Below, piece after piece: positions 6,115-26,133 of a stretch of 27,483 bases of DNA (its first letter is position 1; every line of letters begins with the position of its first letter). The stretch is from Gemmatimonadota bacterium (GTDB lineage Bacteria > GCA-2686955), in contig NYZA01000167.1 of the NCBI GenBank assembly GCA_002686955.1, positions 1-27,483 on the forward strand. Direction: 5' to 3'. A program made the position numbers and the translations under genes. The notes under the pieces were generated by a model. It saw nothing but the letters and a program-made list of their open reading frames with translations. It did not search any database and was not told where the DNA came from.

Positions 6115-6942
6115 ATGCTGACGGCTTCGATCGCGCTCCTCTGCGCCCTCCTGGCCGGTCCGCCCGCCGAAGACGGCGGAGAGATCGGCCTCGAGATGCT
6201 TAGGGTCCCCGCGGGCAGCTTCATGATCGGCTCGCCGCCACTGGAGCGTGGCAGGGGAGAAGACGAGACGCAGCGTCGCGTGACGTTTTCGTCCGATTTC
6301 CTGATCGCGGCCCACGAGCTGACGCAGGCACAGTGGAAGGCCGTCATGGGGACCGAGCCCGGGAGCTTCCGCGGGGGGGCCGATCTGCCGGTCGAGAATG
6401 TGAGTTGGCTCGACGCGCTTCACTTTTGCAACGAGCTCTCGGCCCGCGCCGGACTCGATCGCGCCTACACGATCATAGGCACGAGCGCGCGGTGGAATCG
6501 AAACGCCAATGGCTACCGCCTGCCGACCGAGGCGGAGTGGGAGTACGCCTGTCGCGGCGGCACGACCACCCATTTCTGGCCCGGAGATCGCGATGGGGTT
6601 TTGCGCCGGATCGGATGGTACAGCGACAATTCCGCGAATCGGACCCACGCCGTCGGGAGAAAGGTGGCCAATCCCTGGGGCCTTTATGACGTTCACGGCA
6701 ACGTATGGGAATGGTGTTGGGACCTCTATGGGGACTATCCATCGGATCCGGCAGTCGACCCCGCGGGCCCTTCGGACGGGAGCGCGCGAACGATTCGCGG
6801 AGGCGGCTGGAATACTGTCGCTCGCCAGTGCAGATCGGCGAGCCGTCATCACTACGATCCCGATAACTACTGCAACATAATCGGGTTTCGGGTCGCCAGG
6901 TCGACCAGTGGGAGCTCGGTGCCCGCGGCCGAGAAGAAATGA
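6115..6942 (+). CDS. Formylglycine-generating-enzyme-like (SUMF1/FGE-sulfatase domain) secreted protein
   Basis: I chose ATG 6115 because it gives a short hydrophobic signal-like N-terminus (MLTASIALLCALLAG) directly before the FGE fold; the frame is open further upstream but with Arg-rich sequence. Family landmarks are LEMLRVPAGSFMIGS, AHELTQAQWKAVMG, PVENVSWLDALHFCNELS, YRLPTEAEWEYACRGG, NPWGLYDVHGNVWEWCWD, and RGGGWNTVARQCRSASR...IGFRVA. Catalytic FGEs have a Cys pair in the segment after the RGGS motif. Here that segment reads GGGWNTVARQC and the pair is not evident, as in many FGE-like proteins that are not sulfatase activators. The stop overlaps the start of the MBOAT gene (ATGA), so the two are coupled. 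Confidence 0.8.
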   Translation: MLTASIALLCALLAGPPAEDGGEIGLEMLRVPAGSFMIGSPPLERGRGEDETQRRVTFSSDFLIAAHELTQAQWKAVMGTEPGSFRGGADLPVENVSWLDALHFCNELSARAGLDRAYTIIGTSARWNRNANGYRLPTEAEWEYACRGGTTTHFWPGDRDGVLRRIGWYSDNSANRTHAVGRKVANPWGLYDVHGNVWEWCWDLYGDYPSDPAVDPAGPSDGSARTIRGGGWNTVARQCRSASRHHYDPDNYCNIIGFRVARSTSGSSVPAAEKK

Positions 6943-8844: not shown

Positions 8845-9369
8845 ATGAACTCCATGTACCTGTCCGCGAGCCTGCTCTTCCTGACACCACCTCCGAGCCA
8901 GGCTCCAGTCGACACTAGAACCTGTATCGAGTACTGCTCGCAAGAGGTTTGCAGCGGGATCGAAGACGAGCAGGAGTACAAGAAGTGTATGCGCGAGTGC
9001 CACCACAACGAGTCGGTCGTGAGGGTCGAGAAGTGGAAGAAGACCGGGCTGCCCAAGGCGAGAATATCGTTTATTACGAACCGGCTTCGTGGCGTCGTCG
9101 CGAAAAAGGCGAGATCGATCGAGAAGCTCGAGAGATCGGTGAGGGCTTCTGAAGAATCGATCCGTGTGCTGGAGGAGCAGATCTCAGCGGCGAAGGAGGG
9201 GGATATCGGGAACAAGGAACCGGAGATTCGCGCGGCCAAGGCGCGCGTCGAGCCGATGCGGAAGAAATTGAAGATGCAACGGGAAGATGTCGATGTCTTG
9301 AAGCTTCAGTTGACCAGAATGAAGGAGATCCCGATCATCGACCAAGCGACGCCTCCAGCTTCTCAGTGA
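8845..9369 (+). CDS. Secreted Cys-hairpin / coiled-coil protein of unknown function
   Basis: The ATG is preceded by AGGA at 8835-8838 (6-base spacing). The 174-residue product has a weak signal peptide (about 1-20). A Cys-rich section follows, with CX3C and KKCMRECHH spaced so that two CX3C motifs (CIEYC and CMREC) could form a disulfide-linked helical hairpin. A long coiled coil (about 75-160) comes next with heptad-like Leu/Val/Ile spacing (VVAKKARSIEKLERSVRASE). I do not recognise a family. Its last 35 bases overlap the 3' end of the convergent cytochrome gene. A structural or scaffolding role in the envelope is a guess. Confidence 0.65.
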   Translation: MNSMYLSASLLFLTPPPSQAPVDTRTCIEYCSQEVCSGIEDEQEYKKCMRECHHNESVVRVEKWKKTGLPKARISFITNRLRGVVAKKARSIEKLERSVRASEESIRVLEEQISAAKEGDIGNKEPEIRAAKARVEPMRKKLKMQREDVDVLKLQLTRMKEIPIIDQATPPASQ

Positions 9370-11443: not shown

Positions 11444-11599
11444 GTTCCTAGTCCACGCCGCAGGTTCTTGAGAGCCGGGGCCCCTGCCTCCGCGGCCCCG
11501 AAGCACGGACGGATGCCATGATAGGACAGCAAGGGGGGAGCCGTCACTGACCAGCAGATAGGGGGCGGTGGCGTGGAGCTGCGCCTTCGTCGACCCTCT

Positions 11600-12386
11600 C
11601 TACGAGGACACTCTCGTAAGCGTGTACTTCGAGGTGAGACCGACCGCGATCTCGAACGACTTCTCGGCCATTTCGGTTATGGGAACCGTCCTCGAGCCCT
11701 TGAAATAGAAATCGGCCGTGGACTTGCTGAGGCACCTGTACTTGACCGCAGCATCGATGGAGATCTTCTCGGTGTCGAAATCGGCCAGATCCACCTCGAA
11801 TTCGTACTCGTCGAATGCCTTCGGGAAAAGAACGAATCTCTCATGCTTCCTGAAAGCCCAAGGTTGGTGTTCGTTGAAGCCGAGAGGATTCCCGTCGATG
11901 TCGTAAGGCGAGACACGGTAGATGTGTGTGGTCTCGTCGTCAACATTCGCCTCTTCGTCGGCCAGCCCATACTGCAACATCATTCGGTTCTCATCGTCAC
12001 TGACCCTCACCTCGAGCCACGATTCAACCAAGTCCGCCGCGGCGCCGGACGGGAAGATATGCCCCACGCCGACATTCGCCATCCGCACGGTGAATCTGAT
12101 TTTGCTCCCGTGGTGACAACAATCGTGGAGTATCGCTTCTCCTGGAAGACCGCCCGATACTGCATCGAACGGATCAGGAATAGAATGCATGGAACAACGA
12201 AAAGAAAGCCGAGCAAGATCTGTCCGAGCAGAGACATCATGTCGAACTTGATCAGCATGGCGATGCGGCGGAGGTACAGCCCCCCAAGGTCTCGTAAACG
12301 ATCAGTGCGGAACCGGAGCGGAAGAGGCCCGTTTCGATCGGGCGCTTGGTTTCGATATCGAAAAGCTCGGTCAGTACCTTCCTCAT
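11600..12386 (-). pseudogene. Gutted paralogue of the cytochrome b/c fusion (all haem-c motifs deleted)
   Basis: The N-terminal part starts at ATG 12386 after AGGAAC and reads TELFDIETKRPIETGLFR, closely matching the neighbour downstream. Frame is lost in a G run near 12284-12289 (one G short), then continues as KFDMMSLLGQILLGFLFVVPC up to YSTIVVTT. There it jumps, in one frame, to GSKIRFTVRMANVGVGHIFP. In the intact paralogue these two points are about 390 residues apart, and the missing part contains all five haem-c sites. The C-terminal domain then matches to EIAV and ends early. The G-run frameshift could be a sequencing error, but the large deletion cannot. Confidence 0.85.
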
Positions 12387-12478
12387 GTTCCTGTCTCCAT
12401 GACGAGAGGTCCCAAGAGAAGGCGCCTCGACGGCGAGGAGAGAACCGCTTCCAATATGGCAAATGGGACGGCTCGAAG

Positions 12479-14734
12479 TCACCTTAGCCGAGATCGATCG
12501 GTTGCCGCTCCACGCCTTCCCCCATTCCGGCCGATCCAAGAATCGAGATCCGCCAGCATGGCGTCGGCCCGGGATCGCTCCCGCCGCGCAAGATCGCGAG
12601 TCTCCGATCGATCGGACCGGAGGTTGTAAAGCTCCAGAACAGGGGATCGATCTCTCCACCTCGTTGAGATCAGCTTCCAGTCCCCCCGCCTGATGGTGCT
12701 GACGAGATGCCCGTGGCCCACCGCCTCGGCGAGGATCAGCCGGTTCGAATCCTCCGGCTCCTCTCCTCGAACGACACCGAGCAGGCTTCTCCCCTGCATC
12801 CCTTGCGTGCTCCCGTCTATCGGAATTCCGACCAGCTCGAGCAGGGTCGGCATCAGATCGACGAGCATCACCGGCTCACGAACCACCCGCCGGACCGGCT
12901 CGAGCCACTGCGGCGGCGCGCTCATGATCCAGGGCACATGGCTGATCTCCTCATAGAGCCGCGGAGGGTTGGTGTTGTGCAGAAAGACCCCGTGATCCCC
13001 CAGCGCCTCACCATGGTCGCTGATCAATACGACGACCGTATTCGATCGAATCTCGGCAAGTCGGTCGAGAATCAGACCCACATGATCGTCGGTGAAGGTC
13101 ACGCCCGCGTCGTAGCGATTCCTCAAGTAGTCGATGTCCTCCTGATCGAGCCGGCAGTCGGTTTGGCCGGGAGGCAGCTCGAACGATTCGTCCGGCCAGC
13201 CTCCCCTCTTCGGCGGAGGTTCGCTCAGAGACAGGCGCCAGCCTCCGCGATCGCGATCGATTCCCAAGAGCAGATCCCTCGACATTCCGATCTCGGAGAA
13301 AAAGCCCGTATATCGTCTCACGTGGGGCTTCCGGTAGGCCAGGGGCGGCAGATAGGGTCGATGGGGATCGGCGGGATTGAGCAGAACGAAGAAAGGTCGC
13401 GCGTCGGAAGATTCGATCCACGCGAAGACATCGGGCAGAAACTGCGGAAACGAGCTCTTCGCGTGGCGGACCGGATCGGAGTGCATCCGATAGCTCCGGT
13501 AGAGGTCGAATCCCCTGCCGAAGCCATACGCCTCTTCGTTGTAGTGCCCGGTGAAGAATCCTGCCGTGCGGTAACCCGCCCTCCGCAAGACCTCGGGCAG
13601 CACCGTTTCCCAGCGATTCAGAGGTGGGTCGACATATGCGAAAGACGAAGTCCTGCGCGAGTCGTCGAAAAGCCCGAGCGTTCGAGGATGCTTCCCGGTC
13701 AGGATCGAAGCGAATCCGGGAAGCGTCCAGCAAGATGGAGCGCTCGCCGACTCGAACAGAACCCCACGGTCGGCGAGTCCATCGATATTCGGAGTGGTTG
13801 GCTTCGAATACCCGTAGACCGAGAGACGGTCCGCACGAAGAGTATCGACGACGATCAGGAGGATATTTGGGAGGGTGCGTGCGGCGGGCGTCACCTCGGG
13901 GGGCTGCTCGCGAACGCTCGATGGCGCCCCTGCGCTCTCCCTCGCACGCGCCGTCGCCGAAGCCAAATCCCCGTCGTTTGTTGCGAGGAACCTCGTCACG
14001 CCCCCAGACCCTCCCGCAACGTACAGCCGTGCCCGGTCGCTCGAGCCGAGGATCCGCAGCGCCGTGCGAAGCGTTCGCAACGCCGCGTCGGCCTCCAGCA
14101 ACTGCTCGTGCTCCGAAGCCCGGTAGCGGATGAAGACCGTCGTGCTCTCCTCGGCGAGATCGGTCACGCAGGCCACGGCCTTCTCGGTGATTCCGTCGTT
14201 ACTCCAGCCGCCGGTATCCACCAGAAGATCAAGATCCCAATCCCGAGCGCCCCTATCGGCATCGTCCATGGCGACCCTCTTCACCCTCGGGTCGTCTTCT
14301 CTCACAGCGGCGAAGAAAGCGCCGCTCGAGGACACGGAACGATCCCCGGCCATCCCCGGATCGGCCCAAGGCACGTCGGTCCAGACCGATCGAGCCCCGG
14401 TGAGCTCCATGTACACACCTTCGGCCGCCAACCTCGCGAGATTCGGCAGCTCGCCTTCGGAGAGCATCGACGCCACGCGCACCGGATCGGCCCCATCCCA
14501 TTCGATGAGCAGTAGGGTGCGGACGGGCGATCCCGGCGACGTGGTGGAGGTCCTCGTCGGTTCAGCGGGCTTACCCATCTCGCCGCAGCCGCCGAGGATG
14601 CCGAGGAGGGCGACCAGGCATCGAATTCCGGATGGGCGAAGAGTGGGCAACGCTTTGACCTGATAGAGAGTCGGCGGATCGATCGCCGTATTAGAATAGC
14701 AGCGAGGAGTAGAGATCGAAGGCCTCGGAAACAC
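12479..14734 (-). CDS. Sulfatase-like (alkaline phosphatase superfamily) lipoprotein with two AP-type domains
   Basis: The frame opens at GTG 14734, inside the MBOAT 3' end. TTG 14650 is an equally good start because it places a compact signal peptide ending in LGILGGC (Cys50 of the long form), a lipobox. Residues about 70-280 resemble a degenerate phosphodiesterase domain (LLLIEWDGADPVRV...LPNLARLAAEG). Residues about 288-740 form a sulfatase domain: NILLIVVDTLRADRLSVYGY (metal Asp residues), APSCWTLPGFASILTGKHP, FFVLLNPADPHRPYLPP, and VVVLISDHGEALGDHG. Counting back from LTG in the C/S-x-P-S-R consensus puts Thr337, not the nearby Cys335, at the nucleophile position, as in Thr-type relatives such as phosphoethanolamine and LTA transferases. 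It would therefore not need formylglycine. It lies directly after the MBOAT gene. Confidence 0.8.
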   Translation of the reverse strand: MFPRPSISTPRCYSNTAIDPPTLYQVKALPTLRPSGIRCLVALLGILGGCGEMGKPAEPTRTSTTSPGSPVRTLLLIEWDGADPVRVASMLSEGELPNLARLAAEGVYMELTGARSVWTDVPWADPGMAGDRSVSSSGAFFAAVREDDPRVKRVAMDDADRGARDWDLDLLVDTGGWSNDGITEKAVACVTDLAEESTTVFIRYRASEHEQLLEADAALRTLRTALRILGSSDRARLYVAGGSGGVTRFLATNDGDLASATARARESAGAPSSVREQPPEVTPAARTLPNILLIVVDTLRADRLSVYGYSKPTTPNIDGLADRGVLFESASAPSCWTLPGFASILTGKHPRTLGLFDDSRRTSSFAYVDPPLNRWETVLPEVLRRAGYRTAGFFTGHYNEEAYGFGRGFDLYRSYRMHSDPVRHAKSSFPQFLPDVFAWIESSDARPFFVLLNPADPHRPYLPPLAYRKPHVRRYTGFFSEIGMSRDLLLGIDRDRGGWRLSLSEPPPKRGGWPDESFELPPGQTDCRLDQEDIDYLRNRYDAGVTFTDDHVGLILDRLAEIRSNTVVVLISDHGEALGDHGVFLHNTNPPRLYEEISHVPWIMSAPPQWLEPVRRVVREPVMLVDLMPTLLELVGIPIDGSTQGMQGRSLLGVVRGEEPEDSNRLILAEAVGHGHLVSTIRRGDWKLISTRWRDRSPVLELYNLRSDRSETRDLARRERSRADAMLADLDSWIGRNGGRRGAATDRSRLR

Positions 14735-15992
14735 CGATCCCGTTGGCGCTTCTCAGCAGGACCAGCAGCAAGGAGCGCACGAAGAAGGTGATGGCGATTC
14801 CGACTCCGGTCCAGAACCAGAGGGCTCGTCCCCCTCCGCGCCACCTCTTGTCCAACAAGAGAAGCGACCCGATCACCAGCGGAATCTGCCCTGCTTCGTA
14901 CAGAAGGCGGAGCTCGCCGAGCTGCAACCAACCCTCGAAACCAAGGGGGGGATGAACGAGTCCGTAGAGAAGAGCGCCGAAGAGCCCTTGACAGAGAAAA
15001 GTCACCGCGCACGCGGCGCTGACATTCAGAGCTCTCCGTTCCGGGTGGGAGCGGCTGAGCCTGAGCACGATCGGCATGTAGAACATCGAGACCATCATCT
15101 CGCGGAAATGGACATTCCACCGTCTCCACAAGTCGGCGTAGTCCCGTGCCGCGAGTGGATTCTCGTAGTTGTCCCGGATGGCGAAGCCGTGCAGTCGGGC
15201 CACTCCCACCGAGAGCTGCTCCGTGCCGAAGCGGAGCGCGTAGAAGGCCAGGTAGTTCAATACCAGCGCGAGAACGATCGAGCCCCGTGTTTCGGCGAAG
15301 GCCGAGAGCGCGAACACCTCGTCGAGCCGCGAGTCGACGACGTATTTCACGAAGGCCACTCGGGCGAGGAGGTGGAGCGTGGCGATGGCGATCGTTCGAA
15401 GCCCCGAGCGTGCCGAAGAGGCGCCGCTCTCCGCCAGGTGGGAGGCGTGGAAATGGGAGTACGACACCACCGGTGCCTTCCCCATGAGGAAGGCCAGAGA
15501 GAGGAAATAGACGAGGACATCGCTGAGATCGGCCGGATCGATGCGCCGGGAGCGGAGCTCGTAGAGGAAGTAGACGAGCTTTTTGAAGTACGTGATCAGA
15601 AGGAAGATGGCGACGTAGCCACGGGCGTGGTCGACCGGCCCTCGCGGACCCATCTCCACCATCACTCCGCCGAAGCCGATCGGGAGGAAGAGGGTCAGCA
15701 GAAATCCGGCGGCGAGGAGAAAGCGCAATCGCTGCGCGCGCGCGAATCGAACGCTCACTCCGTGGACCAAGCTCGAGAAAACGAGAAGGAAGAGACTCAG
15801 CTTCGGGGCGAAGAACACCGCCAGAAACACCAGACTCGCGACCAGAAGCGTCTGCTTTCGATGTCGCTCCGGCAGGGCATGGAGAAGGGCGGCTACTCCC
15901 GCGCTGTACGCCAGATATGAGATCAGAAGGGAAAACTCGAAGTGGAGGCCATTCAGAAAGTCGCCCGTTGTCGGCCACGCCGGATCGGACAT
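14691..15992 (-). CDS. MBOAT family membrane-bound O-acyltransferase-like protein (paralogue 2)
   Basis: I chose ATG 15992 because GAGGGGG lies 8 bases upstream, an excellent ribosome site. An ATG at 16058 would add 22 unlikely residues overlapping the previous gene. The 433-residue product is polytopic and parallels paralogue 1: PERHRKQTLLVASLVFLAVFF near the N-terminus, GTEQLSVGVARLHGFAIRDN in the middle, then DLWRRWNVHFREMMVSMFYMP, then C-terminal helices (VGIAITFFVRSLLLVLLR). The WRRWN form with Asn instead of the AlgI-type His is shared with the paralogue. It is 31 bases after the LytM-like gene and overlaps the start region of the sulfatase-like gene by up to 44 bases, so the three are probably one operon. 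Confidence 0.8.
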   Translation of the reverse strand: MSDPAWPTTGDFLNGLHFEFSLLISYLAYSAGVAALLHALPERHRKQTLLVASLVFLAVFFAPKLSLFLLVFSSLVHGVSVRFARAQRLRFLLAAGFLLTLFLPIGFGGVMVEMGPRGPVDHARGYVAIFLLITYFKKLVYFLYELRSRRIDPADLSDVLVYFLSLAFLMGKAPVVSYSHFHASHLAESGASSARSGLRTIAIATLHLLARVAFVKYVVDSRLDEVFALSAFAETRGSIVLALVLNYLAFYALRFGTEQLSVGVARLHGFAIRDNYENPLAARDYADLWRRWNVHFREMMVSMFYMPIVLRLSRSHPERRALNVSAACAVTFLCQGLFGALLYGLVHPPLGFEGWLQLGELRLLYEAGQIPLVIGSLLLLDKRWRGGGRALWFWTGVGIAITFFVRSLLLVLLRSANGIGVSEAFDLYSSLLF

Positions 15993-16023
15993 TTCTATCG
16001 CCCCCTCGCCGGAACCGTCGACA

Positions 16024-16557
16024 TCACTGCGTGTCGCCGGCTTTACGCCAAGCAGCACTCAGACCGAGCGAGAGCGGGTCGATCGGACTGTTGTCCCGCC
16101 GCACCTCGAAGTGGAGATAGGGCGGAATCGATGGATCTCGGGCATTGCCCGTCTTTCCCACTCTGCCGATCAACTCGCCCTGCCGAACCCGATCCCCCTT
16201 TTTCACGTTTGTCTTCCGCAGGTGCGCATAGCGGCTCATCAGCTGGTCCCCATGGTCGAGGTCGATGAAGAGTCCTCGATTCGGATGGGTGCCGACCTCC
16301 GCCACCCGCCCGCCGCGAACCGCCCGGACGGGGCTCTCCAACAGAGCAGCGAAGTCGATCCCGTTGTGGCGATGGTCGGCGCGACGGGGCGTACGAAAGC
16401 GGCCATCCCGTTGCGGATGGTTCAGGATGACGAGTGGTCGGGTGTCCACCGGCGCCACCGCCGGCCGCCAGTCGACGTATGAAAGCTGCGTTCCGGCCGC
16501 GACCAGCGCGCAGATTCCTACGATCCATCCGATCTTTCGTCCGATCTTAGGGTCCAC
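16024..16557 (-). CDS. M23/LytM-like peptidase domain protein with altered HxH motif
   Basis: The 177-residue protein starts at GTG, has a membrane or signal segment (about 9-26), then a complete LytM domain: HNGIDFAAL (His64, Asp68), SRYAHLRKTNVKKGDRVRQG (His112) and a final PPYLHFEVRR (Tyr147, His149). In M23 endopeptidases that act on peptidoglycan cross-bridges the last motif is HxH, the first His being catalytic and the second a zinc ligand. Here the first is Tyr, so the zinc ligands remain but the catalytic His is missing. It may be a non-catalytic LytM-like regulator or a weakened enzyme. It is the first gene of the minus-strand run and is divergent from the Tat-protein array. Confidence 0.75.
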   Translation of the reverse strand: MDPKIGRKIGWIVGICALVAAGTQLSYVDWRPAVAPVDTRPLVILNHPQRDGRFRTPRRADHRHNGIDFAALLESPVRAVRGGRVAEVGTHPNRGLFIDLDHGDQLMSRYAHLRKTNVKKGDRVRQGELIGRVGKTGNARDPSIPPYLHFEVRRDNSPIDPLSLGLSAAWRKAGDTQ

Positions 16558-16660
16558 GCAAGAATGACTTGCTGGTTTGGCATCCCATCTTCGCCACGTC
16601 TCCGGGCGATCGCCGCCCTGACGATGGCCGCGCGGCCCCTTTCCAGGGGTTCCCGCAGGA

Positions 16661-16669
16661 TGCTAGATT
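16661..16669 (+). promoter_or_regulatory. Candidate extended -10 promoter of gene A (TGCTAGATT)
   Basis: TGCTAGATT matches an extended -10 (TGn followed by TAnnnT) and lies 53 bases before the chosen ATG at 16722. The same TGCTAGNNT is found at similar distance before genes D and E. At 17-base spacing the -35 position reads TTCCAG, a poor match. Confidence 0.4.
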
Positions 16670-16721
16670 ATATTGAAGCGCAGCGGGGGCCGAAGCGATG
16701 AAACGGGCCGAGCCAGATATC

Positions 16722-18134
16722 ATGAAGCGTCGATCGGGGGGGATCAGTCGTCGGGGTTTTCTCGCCTGCGCGGGAGCACTTGGGGCATTCGCGGCTCTGA
16801 GTTCCAAGGGTTGCGCGGCCGACTACGACTATTCGCCCCTCATCGCCCTCTGGCGGCGGCGTCAAGCCCTCGAGGCGCGGCATCTGAAGCTCCTTCGCTT
16901 CACACTCTCTCCCAACCAGATCTCGGCCGGCACGATCCTCAAGCTCGGTCTTCGTGATCAGGGAGGCGAAGACTGGATCTTTAAGGTGGGGCCCGTCGCA
17001 TGTTGTGGAGCACGAACGGTCTACGAGCTCGGCACCCTCTTCGGCTGGGAAACGCCAGAGATCCATCACACCAGCGTCGTGGTGAACGGCAAGTCCGTGC
17101 GTGGAACGTTGCAGCGCCTTGTCCCCGATGCTCAGCGCATCGTCGGCTTCGTCAAGCAGACCCGTCGAGGCATCGACCGCCTTACTCCGCGGGCCTGGCG
17201 CGATCTGCTCGAGAGCCAGCTCTTCGGCTGGATCAGCGTAAACCACCATCTGCACATCATGCAGTTCATCGGGACCATGTCGGCTGGACGGGTCGCGCGG
17301 GTCCAGCGCATCGACAACACGGTCGAGTGGTACCTGGTTGGCCACGACCGCCTCGACGAGAGCTTCATGACGCCGATCTTGGCGGTCCGCATGGAGCACC
17401 ATCTGCTCGGCTACGGATGGATGTGGGATCTCTTCCGGAGAGGATTGACGCAGCTTCCCCTGGCCGAGGTGTACGCCCTCGCATGCTTCATCGCCGCGGC
17501 TCCCGACGAGATCTACGCCGAACGATTCGCGAGAGGGATCGACAACGACTTCGACCGTTTCGCCAATGTCTCGACGAAAGTGCTGCGCGAGCTGGTTCCC
17601 GATCTGGTGGAGGCTTTCGACACGGCCGCATTCGTGCCGACGATGGTGGCCCGCAAGAAGGAATTGCCCGAGGCGATCGCAGCCCTCTTCGAGACCGAGC
17701 TCGCCAAGCTGGGCCAGCGAGCGGGCTTCCATGACGGCCCATCCCCGCACGAGATCGGCGAGCGAATCGGCCATGGCCTCGAAGAGCGAATCGCCGAGCT
17801 CGATGCACGTCTCGGGCGACTCGATCCCGGGCCGCCTCCTCAGCAGTCGATCAACGCCGTCACTTCGGTCGAAGCCTACGGGATCATCAGCCAGGTCCTC
17901 GCGAGCTCCAACATCCCGAAATCGGCACGAAAGCAGAGAGAGTTATTCTCCGAGGCGATCGCCTCTCTGGTCGACCTCGCGCAACACGCCCACAACCCTC
18001 TCGAGACGAGGGGAATCGAGCACGCCGTCGCCCACCTGGAAGGGCTGATCGAGAAGCCCTTGAGCGAGGTCGAGGCCCGGGTCCAGGTCTGTTGCCACAA
18101 CGCGATCTTCCCGGTCCTTCCGGGCTCTTCCTGA
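16722..18134 (+). CDS. Tat-exported lipoprotein-like array protein A (subtype 1), kinase-like fold suspected
   Basis: I chose ATG 16722 because genes D and E start at the matching MKRRS. The 470-residue product has a twin-arginine signal (ISRRGFLACAGALG) followed by a possible lipobox Cys (SKGC). A conserved core follows: LKLGLRDQGGEDWIFKVG with Lys88, ARTVYELGTLFGWETPE, GTLQR (128-132), LFGWISVNHHLHIMQF (Asn174-His178), and RVQRIDNTVEWYLVG with Asp198. A helical C-terminal half ends in CCHNAIFPVLP. Order and spacing (Lys strand, Glu/Gly helix, Gly-x-x-Gln hinge, catalytic-loop-like NHHxH, then IDN) recall PI3/4-kinase, HipA and Fam20-type kinases, but the catalytic Asp is His/Asn. I cannot name the family. 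Its TGA overlaps the ATG of gene B (TGATG). The protein should act outside the cytoplasmic membrane. Confidence 0.7.
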   Translation: MKRRSGGISRRGFLACAGALGAFAALSSKGCAADYDYSPLIALWRRRQALEARHLKLLRFTLSPNQISAGTILKLGLRDQGGEDWIFKVGPVACCGARTVYELGTLFGWETPEIHHTSVVVNGKSVRGTLQRLVPDAQRIVGFVKQTRRGIDRLTPRAWRDLLESQLFGWISVNHHLHIMQFIGTMSAGRVARVQRIDNTVEWYLVGHDRLDESFMTPILAVRMEHHLLGYGWMWDLFRRGLTQLPLAEVYALACFIAAAPDEIYAERFARGIDNDFDRFANVSTKVLRELVPDLVEAFDTAAFVPTMVARKKELPEAIAALFETELAKLGQRAGFHDGPSPHEIGERIGHGLEERIAELDARLGRLDPGPPPQQSINAVTSVEAYGIISQVLASSNIPKSARKQRELFSEAIASLVDLAQHAHNPLETRGIEHAVAHLEGLIEKPLSEVEARVQVCCHNAIFPVLPGSS

Positions 18135-19555
18135 TGCCGGGGTCGCCCCGCATGCCCTCTCGACGGGGGTTCGTCGGGCTCGCCGCCGCTCTCGGCGCCG
18201 GCGCCCTCATCGGACTCCGCCTCGGCCGGCGCCCGGACTACGAGCGCCTGATTCGACTCTGGCGCCAGCGCCTCGAGCTGGAAGAGGAGCTCTTCAGGCG
18301 TTTGCGTTTCACACTGGCCCCCACGCAGCTACGCAAGGGCATGACGCTCAAGCTGGTGCTCCGCGACCAGCTCGGCGACGACTGGCTCTTCAAGATGGGC
18401 GATACCGCGGTGGATGGTGCCGAGGCGGTCTACCGCATCGGCTGTCTTTTCGGATGGGAGACCCCGGAGCTACAGCGGGCCACACTGCCGATCAACGGCT
18501 TGATGGTGTCCGGCACCCTCCAGCGCTTCATCCACGACGCCGAGGAGCTCACCGAACATGTGTACGGACCGAAGACCGAGCGCCGGCGCTTCAGCGAATC
18601 GGCGCTGGAGTATCTGCTCACCGCCCAGCTCCTCGGTTGGATCACGGCCAATCACCATGTCCACACCAGGCAGTTCATCTTCTCGAGAGGGAGCGATCCC
18701 ATCGACCGAATCCACCGCATCGACAACACCGTCGAGTGGTTTCTGGTCGACCGCGACACGCTGGCCGCCGGCTATGTCACCCCCTTTCTCTCGCACAGGA
18801 AGCCTCGATCGGCGCTCGGCTACGACTGGATGTGGCGCAGATTCCGCGAGTCACTCATCGACCTGCCCCTCACGGACGCCTACGCCTACGCCCGCTTCAT
18901 CGCCGGCTTCCCCGACGAGGTCTTCGCGGAGAGCTTCCTGTCGGGGATCGAAAACGACTTTCGCTTTCTGCCCAACGCCAACGAGCTGATCGTGAGCCAG
19001 CTGTCGCGCATGATCGCCATCGAAGGGAACAAGGAGCGTTTCCTCGAACGGCTGGTTGCCCGCAAGCACCGCCTGCCGGAGGATACGGCGGCGCTCTTCG
19101 ACCGACAGATCGCTCACCGAGGTAGATGGCGGGATTATCGTGACGGCCCCTCGCCCCGGGCGGTCGGCGAAGGGCTCTGCGCCCACCTGGAAGCGCGTAT
19201 CGCGAAGCTCGAGCTGCGCTCCGTAGAGCTTCCGCCGCAATCGAGCTCGCAAGAGGCGATCCGCGCACTCACCTCGTTCGCGGCCTACTCGTTGCTGCTG
19301 CGCGCCTTCACGCCCGGCGGTCTCAGATACGATCGGGAGAGTCGGATCCAGAACTTCAGGAACACGATCGAAGAGCTCCGCGCTCTGGGTGCGGAAGCCG
19401 AGGACGCGAACGAGCGGGCCGCCATCGACATCGCGATCGACGCCGTCCGCGTCGAGCTCGCGACTCCCAGAGAGCACGACGAGCAGGTCCGCTATGTTGC
19501 GCATTTGAACGAGCTCTTCCCGGTCCTTCCGGTCCTTTCGGGCTCCTCCCAATGA
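18134..19555 (+). CDS. Tat-exported array protein B (subtype 2)
   Basis: The ATG shares one base with the stop of gene A (TGATG), which implies coupled translation; a second ATG at 18152 lies directly before SRRGF. The 473-residue product has a twin-arginine segment (PSRRGFVGLAAALGAGALIG) without a lipobox Cys, so it is probably cleaved or anchored through this helix. The core matches gene A in order: RLRFTLAPTQLRKGMTLKLV, DWLFKMG (Lys about 87), AEAVYRIGCLFGWETPE, GTLQRFI, GWITANHHVHTRQF (Asn about 173), and RIDNTVEWFLV. A helical half with FIAGFPDEVFAESFLSGIEN and LVARKHRLPEDTAALFD follows, ending in HLNELFPVLP. Subtype 2 has VDGAEA where subtype 1 has CCGART. Function unknown; kinase-like fold is an inference from motif order. 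Confidence 0.7.
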   Translation: MPGSPRMPSRRGFVGLAAALGAGALIGLRLGRRPDYERLIRLWRQRLELEEELFRRLRFTLAPTQLRKGMTLKLVLRDQLGDDWLFKMGDTAVDGAEAVYRIGCLFGWETPELQRATLPINGLMVSGTLQRFIHDAEELTEHVYGPKTERRRFSESALEYLLTAQLLGWITANHHVHTRQFIFSRGSDPIDRIHRIDNTVEWFLVDRDTLAAGYVTPFLSHRKPRSALGYDWMWRRFRESLIDLPLTDAYAYARFIAGFPDEVFAESFLSGIENDFRFLPNANELIVSQLSRMIAIEGNKERFLERLVARKHRLPEDTAALFDRQIAHRGRWRDYRDGPSPRAVGEGLCAHLEARIAKLELRSVELPPQSSSQEAIRALTSFAAYSLLLRAFTPGGLRYDRESRIQNFRNTIEELRALGAEAEDANERAAIDIAIDAVRVELATPREHDEQVRYVAHLNELFPVLPVLSGSSQ

Positions 19556-20994
19556 CACGATCGCCTGGCATGCCATCTCGAAGGAGCTTCATCGGGCTCG
19601 CCGGTGCTCTCGGTGTCGGTGCCTTCTTGGGGCTCCGTATCGACCGTGACCCGGATTACGAGCGTCTGATCCGACTCTGGCGCCGGCGCCTCGAGCTGGA
19701 GAAGGAGCTCTTTCGACGCTTGCGTTTTACCCTCTCCCCCACCCAGATGCGATGCGGCATGACACTCAAGCTGGTGCTCCGCGACCAGCTCGGAGACGAC
19801 TGGCTTTTCAAGATGGGCGACACCGCGGTGGATGGCGCCGAGGCCATCTACCGCATCGGCTGCCTTTTTGGATGGGAGACCCCGGAGCTTCATCGGGCCA
19901 CACTGCCGATCAACGGTCCACTCATTTTCGGGAGCGCTCAGCGCCTCATTCCCGAATCCACGGAGCTCGCCATTCACATCTTCGGCCCGAACGCCGAACC
20001 TGCGCGTCTGACCGACGAAGTGCTCGAGTACTTGCTGACCGCCCAGCTCTTGGGATGGATCACGGCCAACCACCACGTACACTCACGGCAGTTCGTCACC
20101 ACCCGGGTGGGCGATTCGATCGACCGGATCTATCGCATCGACAACACCGTCGAATGGTTCCTGGTCGGCCATGATGAGCTGAGCGCCAAATACTGCACAC
20201 CACTGCTCTCTCGCAAGTTGCCGGTTTCGAAGCTGGGCTATGGCTGGATGTGGGGCGGATTTCGAGCATCGAAGCTCGATCTGCCCCTCGCCAGAGCCCA
20301 CGCATTGGCCCGCTTCATCGCCGGCTTCCCCGACGAGGTTTTCGCGGAGAGCTTCCTGTCGGGGATCGAGAACCGATTCCGCTACTTCCCAAATGTCGAT
20401 CAGATGACCCTGAGCCTGGTTTCGTCCACCTTCCTCGCGGAAGGCAACGAAGAGCTCTTCCTCCAGACTCTCTTGGCCCGCAAGCGCCGGTTGGCCGCAG
20501 ACATTGAGGTGCTGTTCGACGAGCAGCTCTCCCTAAGGGGAGTGGAGCGAGAGTACCGAAACGGCCCTTCGCCCCGGGTGATCGGCCGGCAGCTTTCCGA
20601 GCGGCTGGAGATCCGCATCACGGAGCTCGAGGAGCGCGCCAAGGAGCTGCCGCCACGAGTGAGCCCCCAAGAGCCGATCCGCGCCATCACCTCCTTTGCC
20701 GCCTATTCGGTGCTGAAACTCGCTCTCTCGGCTGGCGACGTCTCCCGGGATCGGGCGATCCCGGTCGAGCGCTTCGAGGCGACGATCGAAGAGCTTCACG
20801 GCATGTTCGCGCGGGCCGAAGACCCCCACGAGCGGGCCGGGATCGACGTGGCGATCGACGCGCTCCGTGGCGAGATCGAGAATCCAAAGACTCCTCTGGA
20901 GTACCTCTCCTATATCGTTCACCTCAATAGCCTCTTCCCGGTCCTCCCGGGGGCGGTCGAGGGCGCCCACGCCGAAGCTACGGAAGGGTCGTAG
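19552..20994 (+). CDS. Tat-exported array protein C (subtype 2)
   Basis: The ATG overlaps the stop of gene B (ATGA). The 480-residue product is very close to B through most of the first half: MPSRRSFIGLAGALGVGAF (Tat signal), LVLRDQLGDDWLFKMGDTAV, IYRIGCLFGWETPEL, GWITANHHVHSRQFVTTR, RIDNTVEWFLVG, PDEVFAESFLSGIEN, LLARKRRLAADIEVLFD, and HLNSLFPVLPG at the C-terminus, followed by a short Ala/Glu tail. No lipobox is present. It is the last gene of the A-B-C unit and its final 17 bases overlap the 3' end of the convergent SGNH-TPR gene. The close likeness to B points to tandem duplication. All family landmarks are intact, so it is likely functional. The role is unknown. Confidence 0.7.
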   Translation: MTRSPGMPSRRSFIGLAGALGVGAFLGLRIDRDPDYERLIRLWRRRLELEKELFRRLRFTLSPTQMRCGMTLKLVLRDQLGDDWLFKMGDTAVDGAEAIYRIGCLFGWETPELHRATLPINGPLIFGSAQRLIPESTELAIHIFGPNAEPARLTDEVLEYLLTAQLLGWITANHHVHSRQFVTTRVGDSIDRIYRIDNTVEWFLVGHDELSAKYCTPLLSRKLPVSKLGYGWMWGGFRASKLDLPLARAHALARFIAGFPDEVFAESFLSGIENRFRYFPNVDQMTLSLVSSTFLAEGNEELFLQTLLARKRRLAADIEVLFDEQLSLRGVEREYRNGPSPRVIGRQLSERLEIRITELEERAKELPPRVSPQEPIRAITSFAAYSVLKLALSAGDVSRDRAIPVERFEATIEELHGMFARAEDPHERAGIDVAIDALRGEIENPKTPLEYLSYIVHLNSLFPVLPGAVEGAHAEATEGS

Positions 20995-22606
20995 CGAAGA
21001 GCTCTTTCAAGATGACCCGAGCGGTATTTCTCGCGATCAGCGTGTGCCCCGCCCGCGTGGTATGACCGAAGTCGGAAGCGAAGTGGTCGATAAAGAGCGC
21101 GTTGTACCCCTCGCGCGCGATCGCCTCTTTGAAGACGCGCTCATTGTCGACGAAGACGACCCCCTCCCGTTCGGGGATCATCGCCTTCAGCGGCGCCAGG
21201 GTACGCACGGGGTACTGGATCACGACGAGCCGCCCGACCCGCGCCATGACCTTGTCGACCAAACGCTGGTAGTTGTGGAAAGTCATGCGGTTCGGCTCGA
21301 TCCGGTCGATCACGCGGCGGGCGCTCTCCCGATCGCCCTTGTGTTGGTAGATGCGGGCCAGCTCGACCGCGGCGAGGTAGGGATCGAGGGGCCGCGCGTC
21401 CCACGAGTAACGGGCGATCACGTAGAGCGGAGAGCTGTGTTCCGCCTGTGCCGCCGCATCAACGAGCAATCGCTCGGCTTCGTCGAGGCGCTCGGTGCGC
21501 ATGCAGAGCCGTGCGAGCTCGATACGGGAGCGGGGGCCGGCGCCCACCATCGCGACCGCGGCGCGGAGCAGCGCTTCCGCCTCTTCGATCCGACCCATAT
21601 CGAGCAGCATCGAGCCGAGATCGGTGCACGCGTAGGGACTCCGCTCGATCTCGAGCGCCTTTCGATAGGCCGCTTCGGCCTTCTCCAGCCGCCCATCGCC
21701 GCGGTGGTGCTTGGCGACCTCGACGTACGATCTGGCGTCCGCCCCGGCGGCCAAGAGGTCGTCGAAGAGGGGCTCGATCTCATTGTCCCGCCCCAAGTAG
21801 CGCAGCAGCCGGATCAACCAGCGGAAGGCGGGTTGGTACCCGCGGAACCGCTCGATCGCCGCGCGGTAGTGCCGCTCCGCGTCCTCCAGTCGGTTCTGAT
21901 CCTGATAGAGCTGGCCCAAGTCGGCATGCGCCGTCGCGATCGGCTGCCGGGCTATCAGCTCGAGGAGCACCTCTTCCGCCTCGTCGTTTCGATCCTGGCG
22001 GCGATAGAGCATCGCGAGCACGATCGAGTCCATCGCCTCGCCCCGGTCCGCGATCGCCCGGCGGTAGTTCTTCTCCCGCTCGTCGAGATGGCGCTCTTGG
22101 CGCGCTTGCTCGTCGAGAGCGCCGAATGAGATCGCGAGATATCGGCCCAGGCGATACACCTTGATCCGCAGCAACAACCTTCGCCATATCGGCTTCCGCC
22201 GGTACTGGTTCAGATCCACGAAACTGTGCATACCGTCGTTTATGCCCATCATCACTGTGACGATGTCCGGGTTCCAGCGATCCAGATTCTTCCTAAGATC
22301 TCGGACGATGACCGAGGAGTCGATTCCGGGCCGGCCGGCGTTCACGACCTCGAAGCGCAGCCCGGCGGGACCGTTCTCGTTCAGCAAGTCCTCGAGCTGG
22401 TGGGGGTAGGCGTCTTTCCCCCCGACCGCGGTGCTCGACTCCCCAAGGCAGAGAATCCTCACCGATTCCGTCCCGTCAGAGCCAGTGGGCAGCGCGTTCC
22501 GTTGCTTCTGGAGCTCCACGAAGACGAGGCCGGTGAGGCGAAGCCCGATTTCGAGCGCCACCACGCCGACCGCGCAGCCCAGGATTGCGCTGATGAGCCT
22601 GCTCAT
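20978..22606 (-). CDS. SGNH/GDSL-type hydrolase with TPR repeats inserted before its last catalytic block
   Basis: The 542-residue protein has an N-terminal membrane/signal helix (about 4-28). Block I is CLGESSTAVGG (Ser57), block II VVNAGRPGIDSS (Gly91), and block III MMGINDGMHSF (Asn123). Then comes a long tetratricopeptide section (about 200-440; e.g. AEEVLLELIARQPIATAHAD, DAERHYRAAIERF, KAEAAYRKALEI). The final block SDFGHTTRAGH (Asp512, His515) completes the SGNH quartet. The TPR array is thus inserted inside the esterase domain. Proteins of this superfamily deacylate or transfer acetyl groups, often next to MBOAT proteins; the MBOAT genes here are several kb away. It lies on the opposite strand between array genes C and D, starting about 100 bases from D. 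Confidence 0.8.
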   Translation of the reverse strand: MSRLISAILGCAVGVVALEIGLRLTGLVFVELQKQRNALPTGSDGTESVRILCLGESSTAVGGKDAYPHQLEDLLNENGPAGLRFEVVNAGRPGIDSSVIVRDLRKNLDRWNPDIVTVMMGINDGMHSFVDLNQYRRKPIWRRLLLRIKVYRLGRYLAISFGALDEQARQERHLDEREKNYRRAIADRGEAMDSIVLAMLYRRQDRNDEAEEVLLELIARQPIATAHADLGQLYQDQNRLEDAERHYRAAIERFRGYQPAFRWLIRLLRYLGRDNEIEPLFDDLLAAGADARSYVEVAKHHRGDGRLEKAEAAYRKALEIERSPYACTDLGSMLLDMGRIEEAEALLRAAVAMVGAGPRSRIELARLCMRTERLDEAERLLVDAAAQAEHSSPLYVIARYSWDARPLDPYLAAVELARIYQHKGDRESARRVIDRIEPNRMTFHNYQRLVDKVMARVGRLVVIQYPVRTLAPLKAMIPEREGVVFVDNERVFKEAIAREGYNALFIDHFASDFGHTTRAGHTLIARNTARVILKELFATTLP

Positions 22607-22652
22607 GGAGAGATACGCTAGCTGCGCCGCGTCCGCCCTACAAGAGACGAGA

Positions 22653-22661
22653 TGCTAGGAT
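22653..22661 (+). promoter_or_regulatory. Candidate extended -10 promoter of gene D (TGCTAGGAT)
   Basis: TGCTAGGAT fits TGn-TAnnnT and ends 48 bases before ATG 22709 in the short divergent interval between the SGNH-TPR gene and gene D. Genes A and E have the same motif at comparable distance. No convincing -35 is seen. Confidence 0.4.
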
Positions 22662-22708
22662 CGCGGCGAGCCATTGAAGGCGAGGCGAGAGGAGAGTCGA
22701 GAGCCGTC

Positions 22709-24067
22709 ATGAAGCGCCGATCCGGGGGGATCAGTCGTCGCGGATTCCTCGCCATCGCTTCCGCTCTCGGAGGGAGCGGCATCATCGGACTCCGCCTCGG
22801 TCGCCGTCCCGAGTACGAGCGCCTCGTTCGACTCTGGCGCCGACGCCTCGATCTCGAGGAGCAGCTCTTCCGCCGCCTGCGCTTCACTCTCTCACCCACG
22901 CAGCTTCGAAGCGGGTTGACGCTCAAGCTGGTGCTCCGCGATCAGCTCGGCGACGACTGGCTCTTCAAGATGGGCACGACGGGGATCGATGGCGCGGAGG
23001 CGATCTACCGCACGGGCTGCCTCTTCGGCTGGGAGACCCCGGAGCTGCATCGAACCACACTGCCGATCAACGACCAGATGGTGTTTGGAAGCGCCCAGCG
23101 CTTCATTCGCGACGCCAGTACGCTCAGTGTGCAGGTGGCAGGCCAGAACGCCGATCCGCGTCGCCTGACCGACTCCGCCCTGGAGTATCTGCTGACGGCC
23201 CAGCTTCTCGGGTGGATCACGGCCAACCACCACGTCCACACCCGGCAGTTCGTCACCACGCGGAAAGGCGAATCGGTCGACCGGATCTATCGCATCGACA
23301 ACACCGTCGAGTGGTTCCTGGTCGGCCACGACACGCTTTCCGCTCGATACGTAACGCCGCTTCTCTCTCGCAGGATGCCCGCAGCGAAGCTGGGCTACGA
23401 CTGGATGTGGCGCTCTTTCCGGGAGTCGGTCATCGACCTCCCTCTCGCCAATGCCTATGCCCACGCACGCTTCGTCGCCGGCTTCCCCGATGAGGTTTTC
23501 CTCGAGAGCTTTCTGCCGGGGATCGAGAATGACTACCGATTCTTCACCAATGCCGCGGAGATGGTCCTGCGCCATTTGACGCCCCTTGTAGTTCCCAAGG
23601 GAGAAAGGGAGCGCTTCGTGGAGAGGCTGGTTGCCCGAAAACGCCGATTGCACAAAGACGCCGAAGCACTATTCGACGAGCAGATCGCCGAACGGGGCGT
23701 GGAGCAGGAGTACAAGGACGGCCTCTCGCCTCGCGCCACGGAGCTGCCCCCGGAATCGAGTCCACAAGAGCCGGTCCACGCCATCACCTCCTCCGCGGCC
23801 CACTCGGTGCTGCTGCGCACCTTCTTGCCGAGCAACGTCTCCGACGATCCGGCGACCCAGATCCTGCGTTTCCAGGCCTCCATCGACGAGCTGCGCGGCC
23901 TGCGCGCGGGGACCGAAGACGTGCACGAGCGCGCCGCCGTCGACATTGCGATCGGCGCCCTTCGCTCCGAGATCGACAATCCCAAGGCCTCCAGCCAGTA
24001 CCTCCCCTACGTTTTCAATCTGGACGGGCTCTTCCCGGTCATCCCTGAGGGCGAAGGCCCACGTTGA
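22709..24067 (+). CDS. Tat-exported array protein D (subtype 2, with a small internal deletion)
   Basis: ATG 22709 gives MKRRSGGISRRGFLAIASALGG, a Tat signal whose leader matches the start of subtype-1 genes A and E although the body is subtype 2. Core landmarks are LVLRDQLGDDWLFKMGTTGI, IYRTGCLFGWETPEL, GWITANHHVHTRQFVTTR, RIDNTVEWFLVG, PDEVFLESFLPGIEN, and LVARKRRLHKDAEALFDEQ; the C-terminus is NLDGLFPVIPEG. At 452 residues it is shorter than B and C because about 20 residues after SPRA (the LExRIxELExR helix of B and C) are missing, without a frameshift. GGAGAG lies 12 bases upstream of the ATG, an unusually long spacing. The hybrid leader suggests recombination between subtypes. Confidence 0.7.
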   Translation: MKRRSGGISRRGFLAIASALGGSGIIGLRLGRRPEYERLVRLWRRRLDLEEQLFRRLRFTLSPTQLRSGLTLKLVLRDQLGDDWLFKMGTTGIDGAEAIYRTGCLFGWETPELHRTTLPINDQMVFGSAQRFIRDASTLSVQVAGQNADPRRLTDSALEYLLTAQLLGWITANHHVHTRQFVTTRKGESVDRIYRIDNTVEWFLVGHDTLSARYVTPLLSRRMPAAKLGYDWMWRSFRESVIDLPLANAYAHARFVAGFPDEVFLESFLPGIENDYRFFTNAAEMVLRHLTPLVVPKGERERFVERLVARKRRLHKDAEALFDEQIAERGVEQEYKDGLSPRATELPPESSPQEPVHAITSSAAHSVLLRTFLPSNVSDDPATQILRFQASIDELRGLRAGTEDVHERAAVDIAIGALRSEIDNPKASSQYLPYVFNLDGLFPVIPEGEGPR

Positions 24068-24079
24068 CGAGGGCCGGGA

Positions 24080-24088
24080 TGCTAGGCT
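24080..24088 (+). promoter_or_regulatory. Candidate extended -10 promoter of gene E (TGCTAGGCT)
   Basis: TGCTAGGCT lies in the 61-base gap between genes D and E, ending 41 bases before ATG 24129. It matches the motif before A and D. TTGACG at 24064-24069 is a fair -35 but only 13 bases away, so it is probably not used. Confidence 0.4.
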
Positions 24089-24128
24089 CTCGTGGGAGGG
24101 AACGAGAAGAGGAGTATCGCAAGTCACC

Positions 24129-25544
24129 ATGAAGCGTCGATCAGCGGGGATCAACCGCCGTGCATTCCTCGCGGGGGCCGGGGCGACGGGAGCCTGGGCG
24201 CTGCTCGGTTTGCCCGGCTGCGGAGGCGGTGGCTACGATTACGCCCCTCTGGTTGCTCTCTGGCGGCGGCGGCACGCGCTCGAGGCTGAGCATCTAGAGG
24301 CCCTCCGTTTCACTCTCTCCCCCAACCAGATCTCCGCCGGCAAAGTCCTCAAGCTCGTACTCCGCGATCAGCAGGGTGGCGACTGGCTCTTCAAAGTGGG
24401 CGGAGTTGCGAGCTGCGGCGCACGCGCGATCTACGAGCTATGCACCCTTTTTGGCTGGGAGATTCCGGAGCTCCAACGGGCCAGTGTCATCGTCAACGGC
24501 AAAGAGGTGCGTGGAACGCTGCAGCGCTACATTCCAGACGCTAGGAACCTCGTCGGTTTCGTGAAAGAGGCACGGCGAGGCAACGATCGCCTCACACCAC
24601 GGGCCTGGAGCGATCTGCTGCAGAGCCAGCTTTTTGGCTGGATCACCGCCAACCACCATCTACATATCTTGCAGTTCATCGCCACCATCAAGTGGGGTGA
24701 GGTGACGAGGGTTCAGCGGATCGACAATGCGGTCGAGTGGTATCTGGTTGGGCACGATCGCCTCGATGAGAGCTTCATGACGCCGATCCTCGCCTCCCGA
24801 GTAAAGCACTCTCTTCTCGGTTACAGGTGGATGTGGGACCTCTTTCAAAATGGCCACGCGCCCCTTCCCCTGGCCGAGGTCTACGGCCTGGCTCGTTTCA
24901 TCGCGGCGGCTCCAGACGAGCTCTACGCGGAGCGTTTTCGAGAGGGGATAGAGAACGAATTCGATTGCTTCGGCAACAACTCGAAGGCGGTGCTGCGCGG
25001 GCTCGTTCCCGATCTGGTGGAGAGCTTCGACGAGAGCTCCTTCCTGCCGACGATGATGGCCCGCAAGAACACGTTGCCGACCGATATCGCGGCGCTCTTC
25101 GAGACTCAGCTCGAGAAGGCCGGGCGGAGGGTGGCCTTCTTCGACGGACCGTCCCATCGAGAGACCGGCGAGCGCATCATCCGAGGCCTCGAAGCGCGAA
25201 TCGCCGAGCTCGAAGCGCGCCTCGTGCAGCTCGGCGGGCATCAACCGCCTCGGCGGTCGATCGAAGCCGTCACCTCGGTCGAGGCGTATGGGATCATCCG
25301 CCAGGTGCTCGAGAGCGCCAACATTCCAAAGTCGAGAGTGGAGCAGAAGGTCGTGTTTTCAGATGCAATCGTCGCTCTGACCGAGCTTCTGCCGCACGCC
25401 GACAACCCTTTCGAGAGACAAGGGATCGGCCACGCAATCACCCATCTCGAAGGCCTGATCGAGAATCCTCTGAGCGAGGCCGAGGCTCGCGCCCAGGTCT
25501 GCTGCTTCAACTCGATCTTTCCGGTTCTTCCAGACGCCTCTTGA
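24129..25544 (+). CDS. Tat-exported lipoprotein-like array protein E (subtype 1)
   Basis: I chose ATG 24129 because MKRRSAGINRRAFLAGAGATG is a clean Tat leader; the frame is open far upstream only as a shadow of gene D. A lipobox follows (GLPGC). The 471-residue product closely matches gene A: LSPNQISAGKVLKLVLRDQ, GDWLFKVGGVASCGARAIYE, GTLQRYIPDA, LFGWITANHHLHILQF, RVQRIDNAVEWYLVGHDRLD, FIAAAPDELYAERF, and CCFNSIFPVLPDAS at the end. Cys in VASCGAR and the C-terminal CC pair are shared with A and absent from subtype 2. AGGAG lies 14 bases before the start. Its TGA overlaps the ATG of the broken gene F (TGATG), repeating the A-B arrangement, which points to duplication of a two-gene unit. Confidence 0.7.
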   Translation: MKRRSAGINRRAFLAGAGATGAWALLGLPGCGGGGYDYAPLVALWRRRHALEAEHLEALRFTLSPNQISAGKVLKLVLRDQQGGDWLFKVGGVASCGARAIYELCTLFGWEIPELQRASVIVNGKEVRGTLQRYIPDARNLVGFVKEARRGNDRLTPRAWSDLLQSQLFGWITANHHLHILQFIATIKWGEVTRVQRIDNAVEWYLVGHDRLDESFMTPILASRVKHSLLGYRWMWDLFQNGHAPLPLAEVYGLARFIAAAPDELYAERFREGIENEFDCFGNNSKAVLRGLVPDLVESFDESSFLPTMMARKNTLPTDIAALFETQLEKAGRRVAFFDGPSHRETGERIIRGLEARIAELEARLVQLGGHQPPRRSIEAVTSVEAYGIIRQVLESANIPKSRVEQKVVFSDAIVALTELLPHADNPFERQGIGHAITHLEGLIENPLSEAEARAQVCCFNSIFPVLPDAS

Positions 25545-26133
25545 TGTTTCCGTCTCCGCGTATGCTGTCACGACGAGGGGTTCTCGGGCTCGCTATCGCC
25601 TTCGCCACGGGTGCCCTCATCGGGCTTCGATACGGCCGCGGCCCGGATCATGAGCGACTGGTCGGACTCTGGCGCCGCCGCCTCGAGCTGGAGAAGGAGC
25701 TCTTTCGGCGCCTGCGCTTCACCCTCTCACCCACCCAGCTCCGAAGCGGCATGACACTCAAGGTGGTGCTTCGCGACCAGCTCGGCGAAGACTGGCTCTT
25801 CAAGATGGGCGAAGCGGCGGTCGACGGCGCGGACGCCATGCTGTCACTTCCTTCGCGGCCCGCGAAGTGCTGCTGCAAGCCTTCATTCCTGGCAACGTCT
25901 CCGACGATCGGGCGATTCAGGCCGAGCGCTTCCGATCCGCCGTCGGCGAGCTCGATGCCTTGCGCGCGAAGACCGATGACCCAAACGAAGAGGCCGCCAT
26001 CGCCCTCGCGATCGGCGCCCTTCGCACCGAGATCCGCAAGCCGAAGGCTCCCCACGAGTACCTCCAGCATATCCCCCATCTGAACGAGCTCTTCCCGGTC
26101 TTCTCGACCCGAGAATCTCCACGAAAGGACTGA
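25544..26133 (+). pseudogene. Array protein F, subtype 2, with the whole core deleted
   Basis: The ATG overlaps the stop of gene E (TGATG). The first 102 residues are ordinary subtype 2: Tat leader (MLSRRGVLGLAIAFATGALIG), RLRFTLSPTQLRSGMTLKVV, DWLFKMGEAAVDGADAM. At about 25838-25850 the sequence jumps to the C-terminal part, in another frame: VTSFAAREVLLQAFIPGNVSD and then HLNELFPVF near the end. Comparison with gene C shows about 275 residues are missing, including the GTLQR, NHHxH and IDN motifs. In gene C both break regions contain GCCAT, so short homology may have guided the deletion. As written the protein shifts frame at the junction. It mirrors the gutted cytochrome pseudogene. Confidence 0.8.

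Follow-up and report, generated by a model that had tools for sequence, protein, structure and literature searches.

To our knowledge, very few kinase-fold proteins act outside bacterial cells; extracytoplasmic proteins of this fold are well studied in animals, as exemplified by Fam20, and are hardly known in bacteria. Fam20A, Fam20B and Fam20C, which belong to the secretory pathway, are a pseudokinase, a xylose kinase and a protein kinase, respectively. Fam20A is a secreted pseudokinase that acts through heterodimerisation (PMC7948968). Other kinase folds have exchanged the Asp of the HRD motif and kept the remaining site: it is Val in SelO and Gln in SidJ, and these Asp-less sites are able to transfer AMP or glutamate (PMC3281104, PMC6858067).

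How does the present locus compare with these systems? It lies in a stretch of 27,483 nucleotides from a Gemmatimonadota bacterium, analysed whole and referred to below as the window, and sequence comparison within the window identifies five intact genes (A to E) and one broken gene (F), all of them homologous. The original prediction described six homologous genes, with stop/start overlaps at three junctions, arranged as two alternating subtypes. Its coordinates, the homology and the A-B, B-C and E-F junctions were all correct, but the subtypes do not alternate: their order along the array is 1-2-2-2-1-2. The features discussed below are as follows.

16659..16666, plus strand: GATGCTAG element preceding A, perhaps an extended -10
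16722..18134, plus strand: gene A, subtype 1, with RR leader, predicted kinase-fold domain and C-terminal helical region; alternative ATG at 16698
18134..19555, plus strand: gene B, subtype 2, overlapping the A stop by 1 base; its mature protein was modelled, and K87, E97, Q130, H175, Q180 and D197 are cleft positions
18650..18676, plus strand: predicted catalytic loop of B, NHHVHTRQF, residues 173-181, with His175 at the Asp position
18716..18727, plus strand: RIDN of B, residues 195-198, with the putative metal-binding Asp197
19552..20994, plus strand: gene C, subtype 2, overlapping the B stop by 4 bases
20978-22606, minus strand: GDSL/SGNH hydrolase fused to TPR repeats, between C and D
22651..22658, plus strand: GATGCTAG element upstream of D
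22709..24067, plus strand: gene D, subtype 2 body, start of leader subtype-1-like, with ~20 residues missing from the linker past the kinase domain
24078..24085, plus strand: GATGCTAG element upstream of E
24129..25544, plus strand: gene E, subtype 1
25544..26133, plus strand: gene F, broken subtype 2, in which 25544-25843 (leader, start of the N-lobe) is out of frame with 25831-26133 (C-terminal part)

The intact proteins are ~450-480 residues long. A and E are 74% identical as DNA, the B, C and D proteins are 63-64% identical to one another, and identity between the subtypes is ~41%; for example, B is 63% identical to C and to D, 40% to A and 42% to E. The A-B and E-F junctions overlap by a single base (TGATG) and the B-C junction by four (ATGA), and 61 bp separate D from E. 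Translational coupling of type-1 with type-2 genes is thereby supported. The 8-mer GATGCTAG occurs three times only in the window, against 0.42 copies expected, and every copy stands 51-63 bases before A, D or E. Judging from this placement, the array may be transcribed in three units, A-B-C, D and E-F; a promoter scan found no sigma-70 site. Gene F retains residues ~1-100 and 375-466 in two frames and has lost ~101-374, and its damage is thus an internal deletion, more than a mere frameshift.

The family had been described as unrecognised, and this stands insofar as it is absent from Pfam, NCBIfam, PHROGs and PADLOC, where the window proteins gave only leader-level or sub-threshold matches (HipA_C was not matched by any window protein even at E 10). 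The fold, however, becomes recognizable as a kinase of the PI3K/PI4K-HipA-Fam20 type once relatives are added. We sought these with a profile of A-E across ~390 genomes, nearly all from other phyla, and obtained two kinds of distant relatives; close relatives were found neither in the genome contigs searched with the window alignment nor in plasmids. The first kind consists of phage-type proteins, which in the genome set are 1300-1550 residues long. In a Mycobacterium prophage protein the kinase domain sits between VG15 minor-capsid and ADP-ribosyltransferase parts, and the domain is also present in many IMG/VR phages. In these minor-capsid polypeptides (L016:2315-5857 and many IMG/VR loci, L033-L064) we observed a kinase-fold domain with the signature NHDxHxxQF...GIDKG that is unnamed in the annotated records seen. 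The second kind consists of tandem arrays of Sec-exported TPR-kinase proteins in two metagenome-assembled genomes (MAGs) of an unrelated genus, CSMAG_496 and RS_13_36. One RS_13_36 protein of 1249 residues (L040:3133-6879) has a hydrophobic N-terminus, TPR repeats, the kinase domain and further TPR. Since tandem arrays exist elsewhere, homologues of the family are more than unrelated singletons, the distribution that the original prediction had named as contrary to it.

Profile-profile comparison is, at the level of sequence, decisive for homology to both groups: the family aligns with the phage head-fusion kinase domains at an hhalign E of 7e-24 over 241 columns, NHH opposite NHD and RIDN opposite GIDK, and with the MAG arrays at E 6e-22, the pre-kinase helix included. 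The C-terminal region is only weakly homologous to that of the MAG arrays, with HMMER i-E values as low as 1e-6 and an hhalign E of 0.006 at a probability of 6%. Among the 35 aligned relatives, 12 match HipA_C, down to 6.5e-06, and weak scores appear to PI3_PI4_kinase and Fam20C, the latter at a best E of 0.051 in 2 of the 35 members, neither of them a window protein. When the PDB was searched by profile, window rows only returned noise, and neither the phage rows alone nor the MAG rows alone returned a kinase. The best PDB sequence matches of the combined profile are FAM20B, FAM20C and PI4KII, in the correct register and weak (E 0.04-0.5), with the FAM20B xylosylkinase first; because kinases emerge from the combined profile only, we treat these matches as supporting, not decisive.

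An alignment of five rows was too shallow for AF2 (pLDDT 50), and mature B was therefore modelled from 35 rows, at pLDDT 86.7 and pTM 0.87. The model has the two lobes of a kinase. The best of the VIA-align matches listed is PI4KII-beta (Z 15.3, 234 residues, rmsd 3.5); PI4KII-beta and -alpha lead at Z 14.7-15.3 over ~235 residues, followed by VPS34 and PI3K-gamma at ~13 and by H. pylori CtkA at 12.5, and no Fam20 structure is among the matches listed, an absence that does not count against a relationship. The matches cover residues 10-303 of the model, and the C-terminal helical region lies after ~335. Foldseek alone placed nothing in the PDB below 1e-3 for the B model; in the viral library a mycobacteriophage protein with the annotation ADP-ribosyltransferase was its best match, at E 7e-08, and proteins labelled PI3K/PI4K came next. 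A predicted fold of the PI3K/PI4K-HipA-Fam20 kinases is well supported by profiles and model together, as is the altered catalytic site by the alignment described next. The family varies a fold class that is already known; its fold is not new in kind.

The joint alignment allows the motifs to be read as a kinase cleft: the beta3 Lys falls in WLFK and the metal-binding Asp in RIDN, with GTLQR as hinge strand and NHHxHxxQF as catalytic loop. The ATP-anchoring beta3 Lys (K87 in B) is invariant in 35 of 35 rows, the hinge Gln (Gln130 in B) is also invariant, and every window and MAG row has the metal-binding Asp (D197), as do 16 of the 17 phage rows. The catalytic position itself is His (His175 in B) in all five intact window copies, so that NxDxHxxN/QF has turned into NHHxHxxQF. 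Among the relatives, the MAG arrays carry either Asp or Glu there, and of the 17 phage domains 16 have Asp and the remaining one Asn. Where Fam20 has its catalytic DRH, the window proteins have HVH or HLH. The likely position of the alpha-C Glu is Glu in B, C and D (E97 in B) and Arg in A and E. Across A-E, 15 of 17 cleft positions, which we chose ourselves from the motifs, are invariant, as compared to 120 of 415 in the background (P 3e-7). Invariance so far above background points to selection on the pocket, contrary to plain decay, and the cleft appears to be in use.

We propose that these are probably Tat-exported, nucleotide-dependent proteins of the kinase fold, with non-canonical or lost phosphotransfer, that are produced as coupled type-1/type-2 pairs. 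A possible alternative, to be taken seriously though it would not be our choice, is that they are exported pseudokinases with no catalysis at all, whose type-1 and type-2 subunits form either a scaffold at the surface or a ligand receptor, and whose amplification raises dosage. The loss of the catalytic Asp in every copy and of the likely alpha-C Glu in subtype 1 is what such proteins would display, tandem amplification is seen in two unrelated lineages, and Fam20A sets a precedent (PMC7948968). An unused cleft should drift, however, and here the Lys, the metal-binding Asp and the entire loop are invariant far over background. The converse, that they are active extracytoplasmic kinases of glycans, lipids or proteins in which His175 or another residue stands in for the Asp in the manner of Fam20B, strikes us as unlikely. 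The weak FAM20B match would favor it, as would the genes for PMT_2-type membrane glycosyltransferases that stand among the MAG array genes and another that lies in the window; the PMT_2 gene of the window, however, is 12 kb from the array and on the opposite strand, the Asp is replaced, and there is no known source of ATP.

Export is a well-supported prediction from the leaders. RR is invariant in all of them, RRxF or RRxx followed by a hydrophobic stretch is found in six of six proteins, the S/T-R-R-x-F-L pattern of Tat substrates is present, and the source genome encodes TatC. The cut-off of the Tat model TIGR01409 is passed by C and E only (2 of 5), A, B and D falling under it with RRxF retained, and Pfam TAT scores of the window proteins lie under the gathering cut-off. 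These scores are what one would expect if the leader were non-functional and the proteins were cytoplasmic HipA-like or PI4K-like kinases, a reading we regard as very improbable given the motif in all six proteins. Moreover, the leaders at the equivalent position of the MAG homologues are of Sec type and unrelated to these, and export thus seems to have been retained via two different routes. Subtype 1 had also been credited with a lipobox-like Cys. Lys or Pro at position -2 from the Cys is at odds with the lipobox of lipoproteins, and we rejected SKGC in A (within SSKGC) and LPGC in E (within GLPGC), and with them a bacterial lipoprotein, on this ground.

The array grew by duplication. Self-comparison of the window shows that A and the start of B (16721-18426) are 74.7% identical as DNA to E and the start of F (24128-25836); A and the start of B were therefore duplicated as one unit, giving E and F. 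Gene D is a chimera, the start of a subtype-1 leader on a subtype-2 body: its first 45 nucleotides are subtype-1 leader, 40 of 45 identical to A. Within subtypes, dN/dS is 0.23 (A/E) and 0.34-0.37 (B/C/D), and the intact copies are therefore under constraint. The kinase domains of window, MAGs and phages form three separate supported clades in the tree, from which it follows that each array expanded inside its own lineage; the pre-kinase helix is common to both exported groups, and the phage domains are without it. In the CSMAG_496 array a kinase-TPR gene is split into two frames (L068:6882-8985) with an intact copy after it, so that amplification followed by decay is recurrent. The array genes are absent from a sister genome of the same family, the phylum being represented by two genomes in the set searched. 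The family is rare and patchily distributed, and export and tandem amplification arose in two unrelated lineages. That the window proteins are phage head-fusion kinase domains, domesticated with no host role, is extremely improbable and already disfavored, clear as the homology to minor-capsid fusions is, given the separate clades, the added leader and C-terminal region, the purifying selection, and a window in which we recognized no gene for portal, terminase or capsid.

Elsewhere in the window, a multihaem cytochrome (C554/C7) gene and an adjoining broken partial copy (9335-11506 and 11600-12462, minus strand; ~72% identical DNA in two blocks) are another case of duplication then decay. Positions 1-88 and 5768-5855 form an 88-base direct repeat, 90% identical, and comparing a 187-base stretch at 4647-4830 with its reverse complement gives a 78% match. 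Two membrane proteins, 6939-8249 (plus strand) and 14691-16058 (minus strand), match no Pfam family; they look MBOAT-like to us.

Returning to Tat-exported, nucleotide-dependent pairs, we infer activity, substrate and type-1/type-2 pairing as follows. First, the proteins would fold in the cytoplasm, where nucleotide could be loaded, which would explain the Tat route. Second, they would be exported folded, perhaps nucleotide-loaded, and act outside the inner membrane as type-1/type-2 heteromers; the array may thus encode a single extracytoplasmic complex, as had been suggested. Third, the pocket could support non-canonical transfer, in which either His175 would serve as base or acceptor or AMP would be transferred as it is by SelO; we see about an even chance for this. 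It could instead have a ligand-dependent role as scaffold or activator, comparable to that of the pseudokinase Fam20A toward Fam20C, with a chance somewhat short of even. The target would probably be a cell-surface glycan or protein, a weak suggestion from the neighborhood in which the PMT_2 genes of the MAG arrays and the distant one of the window are only a hint. Taken to its full extent, as an envelope enzyme of paired paralogous kinase-fold subunits in which His replaces the near-universal catalytic Asp and which acts on glycans or proteins of the surface, so that bacteria would have their own equivalent of Golgi Fam20, the proposal is tentative and rather doubtful. Several points count against our main reading: little ATP is to be had beyond the inner membrane, a kinase that has lost its catalytic Asp has usually lost phosphotransfer too, and the likely alpha-C Glu is confined to subtype 2. 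The source genome, 84.5% complete, yielded no paralogue with the Asp, which leaves no obvious active partner to regulate. The weak PDB profile E-values and the lack of a PDB match below 1e-3 with Foldseek alone also weigh on this side.

In this family, from a barely sampled phylum, His has naturally taken the place of Asp at the residue that kinases conserve most. The family offers a direct test of whether a kinase fold is able to function outside the cell and to do so with His at the catalytic position. It is also linked to an unannotated kinase domain of phage head proteins; given such a domain in minor-capsid polypeptides, capsid-delivered kinases merit study.

Among known systems, PI4K2A/B (PI4KII) are the closest in fold (~235 residues, Z 15), and the positions of their NxD loop and ID motif match in the profile alignment; the window family differs in having His for the catalytic Asp, an export leader and a helical C-terminal region, and a lipid-kinase role is not indicated. 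HipA and CtkA are linked by the HipA_C similarity of the aligned relatives and by the CtkA fold match; unlike them, the window proteins are without a HipA_C match and are predicted to be exported, and no HipB-like neighbor was seen. The phage minor-capsid/ADP-ribosyltransferase fusions share a homologous kinase domain but embed it in capsid-type polypeptides of 1200-2200 residues, nearly always retain the Asp and have no leader. Like the window family, the MAG arrays have a leader, the pre-kinase helix and the kinase domain, and their tandem copies include a broken one; resemblance in the C-terminal region is weak. They differ in that their leader is of Sec type, their tail consists of TPR, their loop residue is Asp or Glu, and they expanded independently. 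SelO and SidJ are families different from this one that have likewise replaced the catalytic Asp and retained the rest of the site. Finally, Fam20A/B/C resemble the window family in a kinase fold outside the cytoplasm (predicted here), in having paralogues of which some retain key acidic residues and others lack them, and in weak profile matches. The window proteins are not significant members of Fam20 by sequence, and Fam20 proteins are animal Golgi proteins; the window family has lost the loop Asp, whereas Fam20A has lost a different acidic residue (PMC7948968).
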